This document shows, piece after piece, positions 28,778 to 37,167 of a DNA stretch of 37,309 bases. A program made the translations under genes and the position numbers. The stretch is from Arthrobacter sp. H35-D1 (GTDB lineage: Bacteria; Actinomycetota; Actinomycetes; Actinomycetales; Micrococcaceae). The notes under the pieces are model-generated. The model saw nothing but the letters and a program-made list of their open reading frames with translations. It did no database searches and was not told where the DNA came from. The stretch lies in the NCBI RefSeq assembly GCF_030063185.1, contig NZ_JASISP010000017.1, positions 48,647 to 85,955 of the forward strand, given 5' to 3'. The first letter of the stretch is position 1, and each line of letters begins with the position of its first letter.

Positions 28778-29863
28778 GTGGCTCTTACTATTGGCATCGT
28801 CGGACTGCCCAATGTCGGCAAATCAACCCTTTTCAACGCTTTGACGCGAAACAACGTGCTTGCGGCGAACTACCCGTTCGCCACCATCGAGCCGAATGTG
28901 GGCGTCGTCAACCTACCGGATCCCCGCCTGGCAACGCTGGCCGGGATCTTTGGCTCCCAACGCCTGCTCCCGGCCGTGGTGTCCTTTGTGGACATCGCCG
29001 GGATCGTCAAGGGCGCCTCGGAAGGTGAAGGCCTGGGCAACAAGTTCCTCGCCACCATCCGTGAAGCCGAAGCGATCGCCCAAGTCATCCGGGTCTTTGA
29101 CGACCCCGATGTCATCCATGTGGATGGCAAGGTTGATCCCCGCTCTGACATGGAGACCATCAACACGGAGTTGATCCTGGCGGACATGCAGACCGTTGAA
29201 AAAGCCATCCCGCGCATTGAAAAGGCCGTCAAGCTCAAGCAGCGAGACGCCGCAGAACTGAACGCTGTCAAGGCCGCACTGAGTGTCCTTGAACGCGGCG
29301 ACACCATCTTCTCTTCCGTCAAGAGCGACAAGCTGGAGATGGAACACCTGACGGAATTGAGCCTGCTCACCGCCAAGCCTTTCATCTACGTCTTCAACGT
29401 GGACGACGCCGTGCTGGCCAACCCGGAGCGTCAGGCTGAACTGCGCGAGCTGGTTGCCCCCGCCGATTCCATCTTCCTCGACGCCAAGCTTGAGGCCGAC
29501 CTCGTGGAACTGGACGAGGACGAGGCCCGCGAAATGCTGGAGATGAGCGGCCAGGAGGAATCCGGCCTCGACCAGCTGGCGCGCGTCGGTTTCCACACGC
29601 TGGGCCTGCAGACCTACCTGACGGCCGGGCCGAAGGAATCGCGTGCCTGGACCATCCGCCGGGGCGACACCGCACCGCAGGCAGCCGGTGTCATCCACAC
29701 CGACTTCCAGCGCGGCTTCATCAAGGCCGAGGTTGTCCACTTTGACGATCTCGTCGAGGCAGGCTCCATGCACGAGGCCAAGGCCAAAGGCAAGGTCCGC
29801 ATCGAAGGCAAGGACTACGTCATGCACGACGGCGACGTGGTGGAGTTCCGCTTCAACGTCTAA
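28778..29863 (+). CDS. ychF: Ribosome-binding ATPase/GTPase YchF
   Basis: This 361-aa Obg-family P-loop protein binds ribosomes. It shows G1 GLPNVGKST, the switch region FATIEPNVG, G3 DIAGIVKGAS, a NVDD motif in place of the usual NKxD, a coiled-coil insert and a C-terminal TGS domain ending VVEFRFNV. YchF proteins usually favour ATP because of the altered NKxD motif. The start is GTG at 28778. The last 25 bp of the gene are repeated downstream at 32536 and 34765, with a diverged copy at 31622. The 3' end therefore looks like an attachment site whose use leaves the coding sequence intact. Confidence 0.96.
   Translation: MALTIGIVGLPNVGKSTLFNALTRNNVLAANYPFATIEPNVGVVNLPDPRLATLAGIFGSQRLLPAVVSFVDIAGIVKGASEGEGLGNKFLATIREAEAIAQVIRVFDDPDVIHVDGKVDPRSDMETINTELILADMQTVEKAIPRIEKAVKLKQRDAAELNAVKAALSVLERGDTIFSSVKSDKLEMEHLTELSLLTAKPFIYVFNVDDAVLANPERQAELRELVAPADSIFLDAKLEADLVELDEDEAREMLEMSGQEESGLDQLARVGFHTLGLQTYLTAGPKESRAWTIRRGDTAPQAAGVIHTDFQRGFIKAEVVHFDDLVEAGSMHEAKAKGKVRIEGKDYVMHDGDVVEFRFNV
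29839..29863 (+). repeat. att-like repeat copy 1 (3' end of ychF)
   Basis: This 25-bp stretch, beginning GGTGGAGTTCCG and ending AACGTCTAA, includes the ychF stop codon. It matches 32536-32560 perfectly over 25 bp and 34765-34787 perfectly over 23 bp, all in the same direction. Confidence 0.8.
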
Positions 29864-29980
29864 TTTGTAATGATTAGGCTCAAGCCTAGAAACATGCTCA
29901 GATTACTTTCTAAGGCATGTTTTCTTGTATATCAGTAATAGTGCGGCAGCGTATTGGACAGCGATGATTTCGCATAGGTG

Positions 29981-30166
29981 TCATCCGTGAACGGCGTTAG
30001 GCGTTAAGCAGAAGTGAGGCACCATGCCGAGTTTGATCGGACGTAGCGCTGGCGATCCATTGCGGATGACCTGACCGACCTTGGGTACGTCTTGGAAATG
30101 CGAGCCCGCCCGGTCGAACACTTGGCGAGCCCTGGCGATGTCGACCCACTCAGCATTCGATACCAC
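29981..30166 (-). CDS. Small ORF following the 397-aa protein in module A
   Basis: This possible 61-aa protein starts at GTG 30166 with AGGA seven bases upstream, only 21 bp after the stop of the larger gene. I recognise no domain. A basic, Pro-containing C-terminal half (VIRNGSPALRPIKLGMVPHF) is the only feature. The spacing suggests co-transcription. It could be a non-coding frame by chance. Confidence 0.35.
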   Translation of the reverse strand: MVSNAEWVDIARARQVFDRAGSHFQDVPKVGQVIRNGSPALRPIKLGMVPHFCLTPNAVHG

Positions 30167-30187
30167 GGGCAGGTCCTGTGGCTCGGC

Positions 30188-31381
30188 CTATGTGATCGTC
30201 ATGGATTTGACAGGTCGCACGCCGATTTCAGCCTGGTCGATTTCGACCATCCGGATCGTTCGTAGCCGTCGGTAATCGGGAAGACTGCCTCCGCCTGCCT
30301 TGGATCCAGCATGGTGTTCCACGTCCGCGATATCCTTGATCTCCCACCACGTTCCTGGTGGGAGAACGAGCTCCAGCTCAGAGTCCAGATGGGACTCGAT
30401 CATTATGGAGAGGCTCTTGCCGATGTACAGGCCGGTCTTGGGCACCATCTCGAGTGCCAGAGCCGCCTCATCACCTTCGGTGTCCAACCCTTCAGGTAGC
30501 GCGAACGTCAACCCGAGATTCATTATCCACTCATCTTTCAACGTGGTCGCGCGAATGTGGTCATACCGCAGGACCTGACCGACTTCAAGAGCCAAATGAT
30601 CCTGGAAAGTCTTGTTGGTGAGACGCTCACGAGGTGTCTCAGTAGTCTCGAGCGCAACGATCTGATGAACAGTCACGATATCGGTCGGAACGCTAACGTC
30701 GACACCCGGCTCGGTGAACAACGTGATGAGCTCGGCGTGGCAATTGTTATGTTTATAGTCCCACAACGCCTTCCTGCGTGACGTGAGGACATCGACGTTG
30801 CGCGATGCCTGCTCCTCAAGAGCTTCAATCCAGATGTTTTCAGCGTGACGAGGCTCCGTGATCGGCCGAAACGGCGGGCTACTCGGATGCTTCGTTTCAC
30901 GGGTCCTTCGAGCTAATCGGTCAAGGACCTCGGGCGGCGCGAATTCTCTCTGATTGATCTCACTTTCAAGGTAGATCGGTCCCGTGGTGCCCAACTTCAG
31001 ATCAGGAACCTCGAGACTGATGTGGTCAATAATCCAGCCAGCGGCGGGCAATTGCCACGAGGGTAGCCCTGTTTCGGCGTGCCATGCCTGCGCACTCGAA
31101 TCGAGAAGCATCTTCGCCACATGGAATCGCACTTCCTTTACTTCAACGATCGCCCGATGCTTCACGAGTATTGAAAGTGCATCGTCATTAGCAATCCGCT
31201 CGAGCTTCACCACTCGGGGACGAACGCTCGCCCACCAGGCTCGACAGTCATCACTGATTTCCGCATACGGATTCACATCTCTACGCGTCTTCACGATGGT
31301 GTGGAACCAACACGTCGTACCGTTGCACAGTCGACGACAATTCACTGCGAGACACACTCGTCCGTTCAGTGCATCGACCAC
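30188..31381 (-). CDS. Unknown 397-aa protein of module A
   Basis: I do not recognise this family. The protein is soluble, with no signal peptide or membrane segment. An N-terminal Cys-containing stretch (VCLAVNCRRLCNGTTCWFH) could bind metal, but this is speculative. A mixed alpha/beta middle is followed by a C-terminal beta-rich part (ELELVLPPGTWWEIKDI, VRPVKSMTIT). The GTG at 31381 has GGAGG seven bases upstream, which decides the start. It is the main cargo between att copies 1 and 2. Its location in a recombinase-less island next to a HEPN gene makes a defence role possible but unproven. Confidence 0.65.
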   Translation of the reverse strand: MVDALNGRVCLAVNCRRLCNGTTCWFHTIVKTRRDVNPYAEISDDCRAWWASVRPRVVKLERIANDDALSILVKHRAIVEVKEVRFHVAKMLLDSSAQAWHAETGLPSWQLPAAGWIIDHISLEVPDLKLGTTGPIYLESEINQREFAPPEVLDRLARRTRETKHPSSPPFRPITEPRHAENIWIEALEEQASRNVDVLTSRRKALWDYKHNNCHAELITLFTEPGVDVSVPTDIVTVHQIVALETTETPRERLTNKTFQDHLALEVGQVLRYDHIRATTLKDEWIMNLGLTFALPEGLDTEGDEAALALEMVPKTGLYIGKSLSIMIESHLDSELELVLPPGTWWEIKDIADVEHHAGSKAGGGSLPDYRRLRTIRMVEIDQAEIGVRPVKSMTIT

Positions 31382-31700
31382 GAGGCCCCCTCCCTAGTTA
31401 CCTCACTCTAAATCGTCAGCGAACATCGAGCGTATCCGATGCTCTGTTCCAAAAACACCGGCTGGCATTAGTGTCGACGACAATTGCGTCCTCGATGACG
31501 TCGTTAACGGTGAGTGTTAACGGTGAGCCGAAACTTCTCGTGTGCGCCTTGGCTGCGGGAGAGCGAATTACCGCTGCGAAGGTGCCCTGCACCGGACCTG
31601 AAGGTAGTTCCGTACCTGAAAGTGGCGGAGTTCCGGGTCAACGTCTATTAGTAGTTTTCAGGTTTTGATCTGACACAGAGTTCTCGTGACGTATCTATCT
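31382..31700. other. Intergenic stretch between modules A and B
   Basis: This 319-bp stretch holds the ribosome-binding site of the 397-aa gene at its left end, a 12-bp direct duplication GTTAACGGTGAG (31503-31514 and 31516-31527), and the diverged att copy at 31622. I see no supported gene. Confidence 0.5.
31622..31647 (+). repeat. att-like repeat copy 2 (diverged)
   Basis: This 26-bp stretch aligns to the ychF end (29838-29863 region) with three mismatches and then continues differently. In the ychF-like frame it encodes VAEFRVNVY and a stop, against VVEFRFNV and a stop in ychF. It may be a remnant from another lineage's ychF. Confidence 0.6.
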
Positions 31701-32384
31701 CTATCTGTTGGATCGTTGAAGCGGCCCCAAGGTTGGGATCTGCTCCGATAATTGGCGGCAGGTGTCCACCGGCCAGTCTGGAAGATCTTCCGAAGTCCCC
31801 CCAAAAGCCACGATGGTCTGATCGACAAGGTCGCAACTCGCTTGGAGAAAACCGTCCACACCCATCATTCGTAGCGATGGCCCCTTGTTGGTAGCCCAGA
31901 GGGCCCCTGAATCATTCTTTGTGGAGAACGGATCGCCACCGTGGGTGAGGCGATCGCGCAACCACTTCATATCGTTCAGATACATACGTACGTCCCCTCC
32001 TCTATAGACGCGCCATTCGCAAAACAAGCCGTCATCTTGAGATTTTGAAGGGATAAGTGTTCTCACCCCCCATTCGCGAGTGAAGAGCGTGAGCTCATAA
32101 TCTCTCTTGATTGCATCGCGAATTTTATCCGCGTTTAGGGGCAAGATGCGTGTATTTGGGCTCTTGCAGATCTCATTGAAAAATCCCTCTAATGCTGCAT
32201 ACGTAAGCAAAAAAGCTCCCCATCGGAGAGTGTGCTGTCCCTTGCCCTGCAACGTCTTCCCATCGGGACGCTTGGCATAGCGTAGGTCGCTATGAAGCGA
32301 GATCATGTCTGACGGAATCTTAAGGCGCTGGCATGTGGTTTTGACCGCGCTGACGACTAGTTCAAGGGGTTCGTTTGTGCTCAT
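31701..32384 (-). CDS. HEPN-like protein with R-x4-H ribonuclease motif
   Basis: This 227-aa protein has a helix-rich core (TLRWGAFLLTYAALEGFFNEI, residues 52-72 in part) typical of RiboL-PSP/MAE-type HEPN domains. A later helix has R143-D-R-L-T-H148, the R-[D/N/H]-x3-H form of the catalytic HEPN motif. Such proteins are often RNases in toxin-antitoxin or phage-defence systems. No partner antitoxin gene lies beside it in module B. The ATG at 32384 follows CATGAT by six bases, which fits a leaderless start; longer in-frame starts up to 32528 would run across the upstream region near att copy 3. The family assignment is from motif and helix pattern only. Confidence 0.6.
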   Translation of the reverse strand: MSTNEPLELVVSAVKTTCQRLKIPSDMISLHSDLRYAKRPDGKTLQGKGQHTLRWGAFLLTYAALEGFFNEICKSPNTRILPLNADKIRDAIKRDYELTLFTREWGVRTLIPSKSQDDGLFCEWRVYRGGDVRMYLNDMKWLRDRLTHGGDPFSTKNDSGALWATNKGPSLRMMGVDGFLQASCDLVDQTIVAFGGTSEDLPDWPVDTCRQLSEQIPTLGPLQRSNR

Positions 32385-32760
32385 CCTCCCATCATGCCTG
32401 ATCACGTGATGGGGCTGTCTTTGGTTGTCAATAATGACAAATGTTCTAGGTGTCGCGTGACTTCCTAAGGGCCTGCGACGCACGTGCGAGCGATGCTGGC
32501 TCCGAGCCTGTAGGCGTTGCTCGGCCACTGAACGCGGTGGAGTTCCGCTTCAACGTCTAACCGACAACGGTCTGAACCCATACCGTACGGCAGAAAACCC
32601 GGCACGTTTCACTCTCTACCGGCCGTTGGATCTTTCCGCTGATTTATTAGATGGTTTGGGGTATTCAGCTGACCGGATCTGAGCCCGGAACCTGCGCCAA
32701 TACCCCCACACATTGTGCTCGTATGTACTGATCTTCACATCATCTTGTGGCTAGGCCGGT
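32385..32760. other. Intergenic stretch with att copy 3, before the insertion sequence
   Basis: This 376-bp stretch contains the promoter side of the HEPN gene, att copy 3 at 32536-32560, and about 200 bp with no coding potential before the IS target duplication at 32753-32760. Confidence 0.5.
32536..32560 (+). repeat. att-like repeat copy 3
   Basis: It matches the last 25 bp of ychF perfectly. Similarity to copy 4 extends about 22 bp further left: GAACGCG at 32530-32536 matches 34757-34763, and a GTTGCTC at 32516 matches 34743, with five mismatches between. Copies 3 and 4 thus share arm sequence that ychF itself lacks, as expected of sites derived from one recombinase system. Confidence 0.8.
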
Positions 32761-32882
32761 AGTAGTGTCCCTTAGAGTGGTGCAACACCCGCCGGTGACC
32801 GGTACCTCCCTTAACGTGGCACGGTGGTCACCGTGGGTCCTTCGAGGAAACTCTCACATCCCACTCGAAAGGACATCTCACG

Positions 32883-33935
32883 ATGACCGCTCCTCATATT
32901 CTCGACCCTGCCAGCGTACTTTTGCGAAGCTTTGGGTGACGCGTCGCCTGATCTGATGCGTCACTTGCTGCAAACCATGATCAACGCGCTGCTCTCCGCG
33001 GACGCTGACGCCGTGGTCGGTGCTGAGTGGGGCAAGCCCTCACCCGACCGGCTGACCCAGCGCAACGGCTACCGCCACCGCGAGCTGGACACCCGTGCCG
33101 GCACGATCGATGTCGCGGTACCGAAGCTGCGCCAGGGCACGTACTTCCCGGACTGGCTACTGGAGCGGCGCAAACGTGCCGAAGCGGCCATGATCACCGT
33201 CGTCGCCGACTGCTACCTCGCCGGGGTCTCCACCCGCCGCATGGACAAGCTCGTGAAGGCGGGCGCGTGATCAACGCGGTCGTCATGGTGGCCACCGGTG
33301 TGAACGCTGACGGGCACCGTGAAGTCCTCGGGGTTCGGGTGGCGACCTCCGAGACCGGGGTCCTGCTGGTCACCTCCGACGCGCACGCCGGGCTCATCGA
33401 GGCGATAGCAGCGAACCTGCCCGGGGCGTCTTGGCAACGCTGCAGGACTCACTATGCGGCGAACCTGATGGCGGCGACCCCGAAGAGCCTGTGGCCGGCG
33501 GTGAAAGCGATGCTGCACTCGGTCTATGACCAGCCCGATACGGCCAGCATGAACGCCCAGTTCGACCGGCTCCTGGACTACGTCGAGGGGAAACTTCCGA
33601 AAGTGTTCGAGCACCTGGATGCGGCCCGTGCCGACATCCTCGCGTTCACCGGGTTCCCCGAGGATGTCTGGCAACAGATGTGGTCAAATAACCCCAATGA
33701 GCGCTTGAACAAGGAGATCCGCCGCCGCACCGACGTCGTCGGGATCTTCCCCAACCGCGACGCGATCACCCGCCTCGTCGGCGCCGTGCTCGCCGAGCAA
33801 AGCGATGAATGGGCCGAAGGACGCCGCTACTTCAGCCTCGAGGTCCTGGCCCGCTGTCGCCTCACGGCTGAGGACCACGGCGACGTGCCCCACACCGATC
33901 TGCTCGCCCTGAAAAGCATGAAGATACAAGCATGA
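32883..33935 (+). pseudogene. Decayed IS256-family transposase
   Basis: The start MTAPHILDPASVLL (from ATG 32883) shifts frame near 32925 into EALGDASPDLMRHLLQTMIN, and a second shift near 33262 leads to VINAVVMVATGVNADGHREV. At the second break about 50 residues are missing compared with intact relatives, including the first catalytic Asp. A further short deletion lies before TSDAHAG. The second Asp (TSDAHAG) and the Glu (ERLNKEIRRR) remain. The frames total about 350 codons, against about 400-415 in intact family members. The protein should be inactive. Confidence 0.88.
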
Positions 33936-34087
33936 GCCCCACCCAACCCAACGCCTCAGGGCGCCAACCTGACCTTGAGCTCCTCACCCCCGGCCATGAC
34001 ACCGGATGGTGGGACGAACACTGCAGCTCAGCACCCTGGCCCGAGGACTTCTGGCAAGTCGACGGCACCATCAACCCCCACTGGTAG
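33932..34087 (+). CDS. Small 51-aa ORF coupled to the transposase end
   Basis: An ATG at 33932 overlaps the transposase stop in an ATGA, giving a 51-aa frame with the Trp-rich segment GHDTGWWDEHCSSAPWPEDFW and the ending DGTINPHW. It lies inside the insertion sequence, so it travels with it. The function is unknown. The stop-start overlap and the unusual composition argue that it is or was translated. Confidence 0.5.
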   Translation: MSPTQPNASGRQPDLELLTPGHDTGWWDEHCSSAPWPEDFWQVDGTINPHW

Positions 34088-34294
34088 CAAGCCGGCACCA
34101 ACCCGAAGGAGAAACCAGCACCCACCACCACGCCCGACGACCACGACTTCTGAACCTCAACTACCTCGAAACCCCACGAAACGGGTACACCACTCGACCG
34201 GACTTGACCAGGCCGGTCGGCTGAATACCCCAGAGATGGTTAACTAGAAGATCAATCTCAGATCCGTCGCACACTTATGAAGGAGCATCCAACC

Positions 34295-34735
34295 ATGACT
34301 TTTATTGTCTATCTTTCCGGTGAGATTCACACCGACTGGCGTGACGAGATCCAGCGCGGTGCACAGGCCGCAGGGCTCGACGTGGAATTTACCTCGCCGG
34401 TGACCGACCACCCCGCAAGCGACGCCGCAGGCGACCATCTCGGCGCGACTTCCAGCCAGTTCTGGCGCGATCACCAGTCCGCCAAGGTCAACGCCATCCG
34501 CACGCGCACCCTGATTGAACAGAGTGATTTCGTGGTGGTGCGCTTTGGGGACAAGTACAAACAGTGGAACGCCGCCTTCGATGCCGGCTACTGTGCTGCG
34601 CTGGGCAAGCCATATGTGACTTTGCACGACGAAGATATTGTCCATCCACTCAAGGAGGTCGACGCCGAGGCTCAGGCTTGGTGCACGACCACCGAACAGG
34701 TGGTGCAGACACTGACGTACGTGCTCAAGGCATAA
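34295..34735 (+). CDS. ytoQ: YtoQ-family protein (nucleoside deoxyribosyltransferase-like)
   Basis: This 146-aa protein matches the YtoQ family: VYLSGEIHTDWRDEI at the start, SPVTDHPASDAAGD, SDFVVVRFGDKYKQWNAAFDAG (in part) and LHDEDIVHPLKEVDAEA. The fold resembles nucleoside 2-deoxyribosyltransferases, but the activity is not established. Residues 80-105 contain the Asp and the WNAAFDAG loop expected near a nucleotide site. The ATG at 34295 has AGGAG nine bases upstream, better than the ATG at 34277, which overlaps that ribosome-binding site. It is the only intact gene of module C. Confidence 0.85.
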   Translation: MTFIVYLSGEIHTDWRDEIQRGAQAAGLDVEFTSPVTDHPASDAAGDHLGATSSQFWRDHQSAKVNAIRTRTLIEQSDFVVVRFGDKYKQWNAAFDAGYCAALGKPYVTLHDEDIVHPLKEVDAEAQAWCTTTEQVVQTLTYVLKA

Positions 34736-34764
34736 GCCCACGGTTGCTCCGCGCCGGAACGCGC

Positions 34765-34787
34765 TGGAGTTCCGCTTCAACGTCTAA
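34765..34787 (+). repeat. att-like repeat copy 4 (right end of island)
   Basis: It matches the last 23 bp of ychF perfectly, from TGGAGTTCCG to the TAA. The sequence after it runs into a strong terminator, as expected for the native region downstream of ychF. Confidence 0.8.
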
Positions 34788-34814: not shown

Positions 34815-34848
34815 GTGGCCGCCAAGAACACGTGTTCTTGGCGGCCAC
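34815..34848. terminator. Perfect 34-bp palindromic terminator, probably the original ychF terminator
   Basis: Two 17-bp arms (34815-34831 and 34832-34848) are perfectly complementary with no spacer, and ACTTTTT follows. It lies 28 bp after att copy 4. Without the island it would sit 28 bp after the ychF stop codon, the normal place for a terminator. Confidence 0.85.
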
Positions 34849-36977: not shown

Positions 36978-37167
36978 GCCACTCGCTCGATGGGGGTGTG
37001 AACCGCACCGCGTCGTGCGTCGAGCAGGCAGGCAAGGCATTGAAGGAACCTTTCAAACACACGGGGCGACCAAAGGGAGGGCCGTGCCGGAACCTGGTGG
37101 AGTTTAGGTTTAGGGTTTGCCAGTAAATTAGCCGGTGTTTCGTGTTGTTGGGCCGTATCGTTGTGTT

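Follow-up and report, generated by a model that had tools for sequence, protein, structure and literature searches.

Staphylococcal cassette chromosome (SCC) elements are inserted by large serine recombinases (LSRs) at the 3' end of a conserved protein gene, form composite tandem elements and in some cases lack a recombinase. Cis-mobilizable elements (CIMEs) are flanked by attachment sites, have no recombinase of their own and grow by accretion; they derive from integrative and conjugative elements (ICEs) and are usually larger than the modules considered here. Integrons contain ordered single-gene cassettes with mostly unique cargo, among which toxin-antitoxin cassettes recur, and grow at one end. 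Here, we analyze a stretch of 37,309 nucleotides from Arthrobacter sp. H35-D1 (contig NZ_JASISP010000017.1, positions 48,647 to 85,955; hereafter the window), in which the gene ychF is followed by 4.9 kb of DNA that is divided into three modules by direct repeats of the ychF 3' end (copies 1 to 4; Table 1). We consider it probable that these modules are non-autonomous cassettes that were inserted successively and site-specifically into the ychF 3' end, most likely by an LSR acting in trans. A comparable arrangement has been described for the ssrA islands of Dehalococcoides, which stand in tandem at the 3' end of their host gene, with 28 direct repeats of that end as their borders, a conserved motif just upstream of the repeat and a serine recombinase, DsiB; 15 islands without an integration module were regarded by the authors as possible cis-mobilizable elements (PMC3146451).

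The ssrA islands share with the ychF array the tandem stacking, the gene-end repeats, the upstream motif, the serine recombinase (a candidate in the case of ychF) and the recombinase-less members, but they target a tmRNA gene, belong to another phylum, and are large and rich in reductive dehalogenase genes. The ychF array, by contrast, targets a protein gene, and each cassette encodes the last codons of this gene anew; the modules are often single genes, and no recombinase in the role of DsiB was found in the window's genus. Like SCC elements, the array occupies the 3' end of a conserved protein gene and includes tandem composites and recombinase-less elements; unlike them, it targets ychF rather than rlmH, while SCC elements are larger and use Ccr recombinases, and no serine recombinase, ccr genes included, was found in the modules of the window. 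The modules resemble CIMEs in that they are bounded by copies 1 to 4 with no integrase found between them, but most ychF modules are only 0.5-3 kb long and are mutually unrelated, unlike the ICE-derived CIMEs. Similarities to integrons include the ordered single-gene cassettes, the mostly unique cargo, the recurrence of toxin-antitoxin genes and the growth at one end. The differences are that the recombinase is likely a serine and not a tyrosine recombinase, and that the repeats are direct copies of a coding end. No IntI beside an attI was found, a local tyrosine-recombinase profile (15 sequences) giving no match in the ychF loci of the genus, and no attC-like site was noticed in the array, to which neither an attC model nor folding was applied.

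The two features by which we define a ychF-type LSR element on the DNA level, the ychF 3' end and a module-type left arm, are both present in the window (four LSR elements from elsewhere fit the arm only weakly), and an LSR of the clade described below was found neither in the window nor in its genus. LSR elements with a similar arm exist in other genera. A pneumococcal prophage that adjoins ychF has been described (PMC8637289). Our search of the titles and first lines of abstracts of open-licence papers other than preprints retrieved none that describes such arrays at ychF. The initial annotation, which was made from the sequence of the window alone, had suggested that the array might be undescribed; the result of our search agrees with this as far as ychF is concerned, but the kind of system is not new given the close precedents in Dehalococcoides and SCC.

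Repeats of the ychF 3' end and the modules between them

The last 25 bp of ychF (29839-29863) recur downstream in direct orientation, exactly at 32536-32560 and with 1 mismatch in 25 bp at 34763-34787, and a decayed direct repeat at 31624-31648 differs from the ychF end at 4 of 25 positions. The exact copy had been reported in the initial annotation and is confirmed; the repeat listed there as 23 bp at 34765 is real and extends to 25 bp, and the weak copy exists, although at 31624 with four mismatches rather than at 31622 with three. At a limit of 3 mismatches, the window contains 3 matches to the ychF end, as compared to none in 100 shuffles, and the whole genome contains the same 3 matches alone (no more than 3 mismatches over 24 bp; reversed control 0). 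The ychF gene itself occurs only once in each of the 23 genomes examined from the window's genus (E <= 1e-100). Copies 2 to 4 are preceded by a left arm of about 25 bp that is not found at ychF, and the additional left-arm sequence noted earlier is common to copies 3 and 4 (a 45-nt family, 89% identical). Copy 5 (37071-37120) is truncated at the start of an apparent further insertion sequence (IS), and the contig of the window ends there.

Table 1. Features at and downstream of ychF in the window; bit scores are those of the core and left-arm profiles.
Feature	Position	Strand	Evidence or remarks
ychF	28778..29863	+	Open reading frame (ORF); the 3' end is the attachment site
Copy 1, ychF 3' end, proximal junction; core GGTGGAGTTCCGCTTCAACGTCTAA	29839..29863	+	Core 42.1 bits
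Module 1, 1785 bp, with the orphan 397-aa protein as main cargo	29864..31648		Repeat borders
397-aa ORF, family unknown	30188..31381	-	No Pfam or PADLOC match
Copy 2, decayed; left arm 31599-31623, core 31624-31648	31599..31648	+	Core 27.1 bits, arm 15.2 bits (in-sample, the copy being among the 40 behind the arm profile)
Module 2, 912 bp, HEPN-type cargo	31649..32560		Repeat borders
HEPN-type gene	31701..32384	-	227 aa if counted from the ATG that agrees with the database protein (275 aa as the ORF of the initial annotation)
Copy 3; left arm 32511-32535, exact core 32536-32560	32511..32560	+	Core 42.1 bits, arm 16.3 bits
Module 3, ytoQ cassette, 2227 bp	32561..34787		642 bp after subtraction of the IS and one 8-bp repeat
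IS256/Mutator-type element, frameshifted transposase, terminal inverted repeats	32657..34233	+	PF00872 in two pieces; inverted ends 95%
ytoQ	34277..34735	+	PF11071, E 1.5e-64
Copy 4, distal junction; left arm 34738-34762, core 34763-34787	34738..34787	+	Core 37.4 bits, arm 23.7 bits
Perfect inverted repeat and T-run, terminator-like	34815..34848		The terminator of ychF itself, moved away by the array and now 38 bp beyond copy 4
Copy 5, relic; left arm 37071-37095, core (from 37096) cut after 17 bp	37071..37112	+	Core 13.0 bits, arm 18.2 bits

The repeats are real and mark inserted modules. As the initial annotation had stated, the three modules carry a 397-aa protein of no recognized family, a HEPN-like protein and a YtoQ protein as their main cargo, and no integrase or Ccr-type recombinase was found in them. 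The 397-aa protein has a single database relative besides itself (79% identical), and its fold prediction was uninformative (mean pLDDT 35). The HEPN-type protein has 80 database matches, some of which are named RiboL-PSP-HEPN domain proteins, and its R-x4-H motif (R143, H148) is invariant in a 10-row alignment. No match was obtained with PADLOC for the three cargo proteins. The ytoQ module is 642 bp long in genome G007 and 644 bp in G008 (G and L numbers are our labels for genomes and for loci or contigs, respectively), with 642 bp in the window once the IS and one repeat are subtracted, and ytoQ is 90-96% identical in G007, G008 and G016. The IS256/Mutator-type element in this module is bracketed by AGATGGTT at 32649-32656 and 34234-34241; this element had been overlooked in the initial annotation, as had the relic at 37096 and the terminator-like repeat at 34815-34848.

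Empty sites, displaced terminator and turnover of modules

We compared the region downstream of ychF in 23 genomes of the window's genus, in 21 of which the next conserved gene, here called PI34K, could be located. The gap between the two genes is 138 bp in G013 and 156 bp in G010, which represent empty sites, and 0.7-19.6 kb in 19 of the 23 genomes. It is left unclosed by the assembly in G004 and G020, the contig of the latter stopping within the last residues of ychF. Module sets differ among most genus members, and the ytoQ module is the only one in G007 and G016, the second in G008 and the last in the window. Relatives with empty sites or different module sets are what the initial annotation had proposed to look for. 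The two outcomes that it had set against its proposal, a 4.9-kb stretch that is ancestral with the repeats at unrelated places, or the lack of any relative with a module missing exactly between repeats, were not encountered.

A terminator-like inverted repeat is located 40-41 bp past ychF in both empty genomes and 36-39 bp past the last copy in 10 filled genomes, the window included; a similar sequence with 2 mismatches lies 37 bp past ychF in Arthrobacter bambusae (L077). These distances indicate that the inserts separate ychF from its terminator precisely at the repeat. In G016, the terminator-like repeat is found 629 bp past ychF with no strong copy, and no match at up to 5 mismatches was obtained in 8 of the 21 genus genomes examined.

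These patterns also bear on the idea that the ychF end was copied by chance, with tandem duplication and homologous recombination between the copies and an unrelated gain of genes in between. The three near-identical cores in the window would permit homologous exchange among them, but the repeats occur in direct orientation only, their left arm is separate, conserved and missing from ychF, the distance to the terminator is constant at 36-39 bp in 10 genomes, and the cargo is almost wholly different between genomes. This explanation is already contradicted, and we regard it as extremely improbable.

Turnover of the modules was evident in the comparison of G018 and G019, in which ychF is 99.3% identical and a 4079-bp stretch that includes the distal module 99.0% identical, while the proximal modules are unalignable; the only other matches are pieces of 191-520 bp (85-88%) near module ends and 37 bp at the ychF end. 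Together with the shifting position of the ytoQ module, this order would fit with the entry of new modules beside ychF. The 40 intervals between successive copies in the genus have a median of 1.5 kb, with 22 of at most 1.6 kb and 30 of at most 3 kb, some being overestimates since copies in between went undetected.

An old LSR insertion that is now decaying, its parts being moved by homologous recombination, would likewise leave such an array. The decayed copies at 31624 and 37096, the IS in module 3 and the failure to find an LSR in the genus would agree with a dead array of this kind, which is nevertheless rather unlikely given that the proximal modules of G018 and G019 differ between nearly identical ychF genes and that two copies in the window have intact cores.

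The YchF tail and the proposed mode of insertion

Under successive cassette insertion, each cassette would end in a left arm of about 25 bp and a 25-bp core in which the final YchF residues (EFRFNV) and the stop codon are encoded anew. The crossover would occur in the left part of the core (GGTGGAG, the exact bases being part of the proposal), so that the 5' part of ychF stays and the tail comes from the incoming cassette, which probably moves as a circle. The former ychF tail would be shifted downstream and become the next repeat, and new cassettes would thereby enter beside ychF. The enzyme is most likely a ychF-specific LSR provided in trans by autonomous elements or phages, the genome of the window now lacking such an enzyme.

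In 11 of 16 genomes, the G+C content of the proximal ychF tail is lower than that of the most distal tail, with equal contents in 4 and a higher one in 1, as expected where incoming modules supply the EFRFNV codons; this bears out the earlier suggestion that the coding end is rebuilt by the modules. At the LSR-bearing elements, the YchF tail consists of EFR followed by other residues, mostly xGxTS...KK, in 12 of the 12 loci examined, and a tail of EFR plus other residues is also present in G019 from the window's genus.

Distribution in actinobacteria and cargo of the arrays

A profile of the core gave 70 matches above 15 bits in 22 ychF loci of the genus, ychF ends and tandem second repeats counted, and nothing above 12 bits in the reversed or minus-strand controls of these loci. 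With a cut-off of 24 bits, 40 downstream copies were recovered in 17 of the 22 loci and 43 more in 23 further loci; the five genus loci without such a copy are the two empty ones and G009, G016 and G017. Sequence conservation extends to the left arm, about 25 bp upstream of the core, and was not seen downstream of it. The 25-bp left-arm profile, built from the 40 genus copies, detected 30 of the 43 copies from outside the genus at p < 0.001, and arrays with the same arm were identified in Pseudarthrobacter, Arthrobacter castelli, Nesterenkonia, Demequina, Microbacterium and Brevibacterium, among others. A strict 33-bp pattern (at most 1 mismatch) matched 13 of 394 genomes of the class, from 8 families (control 0); of the 3 downstream copies in the genome of the window, it detects 2. 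Class-specific "right arms" were considered and rejected: the most frequent one turned out to be where HigBA cassettes begin, and conservation past the core is therefore cargo.

Several loci contain a partial second core 23 or 18 bp after the first (G004 +23/+951, G011 +338, G021 +23, L080 +1126, L137 +1236, and Demequina L098 and L121), which is perhaps a putative accessory binding site. The copies at +2511 and +5830 in Naasia (L124) carry ychF's own left flank and not the module arm, and are longer duplications of the ychF end that arose by a different event. A second replicon of G001 (contig 2, L222, 8697-8978) encodes the C-terminal 93 residues of YchF (84% identical), the core being intact, and could possibly serve as a vehicle for array pieces. 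Att-like sites were also observed beyond the HisPhos gene in G001, G002 (37.1 and 30.6 bits), G016 and G022, with weaker ones in G012 and G013; the conserved PI34K-DUF3090-HisPhos block may therefore be an ancient fixed module, against which counts that PI34K and DUF3090 follow ychF in the same order in Nesterenkonia (L090) and Clavibacter (L140).

Cargo was sampled as 92 ORFs from the genus arrays, which were picked by length and include some antisense frames. In total, 76 Pfam families were assigned, none of which occurred in more than two ORFs among the 25 families listed, and PADLOC models for type I restriction-modification, AbiE, AbiD, Fic-type and TIR systems, among others, were matched. 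HigB was confirmed in two HigBA-like cassettes, one of which adjoins a HigA-like HTH protein, and HigBA-like sequences are found repeatedly in arrays from several genera, Microbacterium, Cryobacterium, Brevibacterium and Demequina among them. Cassettes are stacked at the ychF end in many actinobacteria and often consist of defence or toxin-antitoxin genes.

Candidate recombinases

The initial annotation had proposed the repeated site-specific integration of small cis-mobilized elements without supplying a recombinase; the integration is supported, and mobilization would take place in trans, as suggested by the failure to find a ychF-type LSR in the window's genus. We place the candidate enzyme in a single LSR clade that is located at ychF in other genera. 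LSRs are encoded behind ychF in Schaalia (L122) and Kocuria (L089), among others. When 297 genomes of the order were searched with the LSR from phage contig L153, matches were obtained in 48, of which 25 were checked, 11 with clade-like segments (nine plus G086 and G082) and 14 less similar ones as controls. In 9 of the 11, an LSR or a remnant of one (G131, G086) shares the contig with ychF and lies downstream of it at a distance of no more than 11 kb, and the LSR contig lacks ychF in G251 and G082. In none of the 14 controls is the LSR located at the ychF 3' end: the two genes are on different contigs in 8 and on the same contig in 6, at least 97 kb apart in five and about 10 kb away on the 5' side in G259, and no ychF-end site was found within the examined flanks of the control LSRs. 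In a tree of 41 LSRs, the 10 that have a link to ychF or to a ychF-end site group on a single branch (support 99/96; 0 of 500 shuffles as low), seven of the "other" LSRs being classed by a search of their flanks for the site alone.

A ychF-end site is located within 60 bp of the LSR start in the viral contigs L153 and L299 and in G237, G281 and G251. The left-arm profile scored 18.2 bits at the L153 site (p 2e-5), 22.7 bits at the distal end of the G289 element (p 1e-5) and 9.2 bits at the site beside the G251 LSR, and G131 combines an LSR remnant with three array copies in one locus (arms 5.3-15.8 bits). Within an array of Demequina globuliformis (L143, 14146-14262, minus strand), we observed a 39-residue piece of an LSR (72% identical), which is a relic of a recombinase-bearing module. 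Outside of these loci, the ten best of 263 plasmid records contained no ychF-type LSR (at most 29% identity), one of the 263 records showed 60-80% identity to the LSR over a piece, the best identity of named phages to the L153 LSR was 40-44%, and two further patterns gave no result in viral contigs.

Two candidates from within the genus were rejected. The sole serine recombinase in the genus arrays, a small resolvase in G002, is broken (one stop, family positions 19-144) and is no homolog of the ychF-type LSR. A genus-conserved third tyrosine recombinase was dropped as an engine in trans when its loci showed no tie to ychF.

Several observations weigh against LSR-driven insertion of the cassettes. 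Excision was never observed, 3 of the 19 filled genus loci (G009, G016, G017) have no downstream copy above 24 bits, and the long-frame serine recombinases compared in the window's genus are at most 39% identical to the ychF-type LSR. The distal arms of the LSR elements L122, L262, L279 and L280 are weak (-6.7 to 3.0 bits), as is the left arm of L299 (-3.4 bits), and none of these is better than the best of ychF's own flanks. Moreover, tyrosine integrases are located directly behind ychF in four other actinobacteria (L115, L119, L123, L138), and the site in L153 sits between a tyrosine integrase (21 bp) and the LSR (43 bp). Combined with several PF00589 proteins elsewhere in the genomes of genus members, the latter two findings would also suit an array of the same type with a different engine, a tyrosine integrase that likewise inserts at the ychF 3' end. 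We consider this distinctly improbable: the arm of L119, the single tyrosine-integrase element with a located distal end, scored -29.5 bits (p 0.71) and that of the Gordonia element L114 -5.4 bits; the site in L299 lies beside an LSR, with no tyrosine integrase in the 6,754 of 11,810 bases examined; the tyrosine profile was without a match in the genus loci, and none of the PF00589 places listed is within a ychF insert. With arm matches that are good for some LSR elements and weak for others, and with the low score of L119, the LSR clade is the best candidate, albeit unproven. It is likely the engine of the arrays and would also have moved the cassettes of the window.

Biological meaning

The interest of the array lies in its small, mostly single-gene cassettes and in its spread across the class. 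Tentatively, the ychF end could be a class-wide cassette platform of actinobacteria, integron-like but based on an LSR, in which recombinase-less single-gene cassettes bring their own YchF tail and depend in trans on an enzyme from helper phages or elements. LSR-bearing elements rewrite the C-terminus of YchF, so that a universally conserved GTPase would record their presence. The LSR clade may offer the field enzymes with a defined natural target, and the mobility of recombinase-less cassettes is made testable. The ychF end with the left arm is a simple address at which to search for small defence and toxin-antitoxin genes that are as yet unknown. If confirmed, the locus would be an actinobacterial site of cassette capture comparable to integrons, and, if an LSR is the engine, a little-noticed counterpart of the integron.

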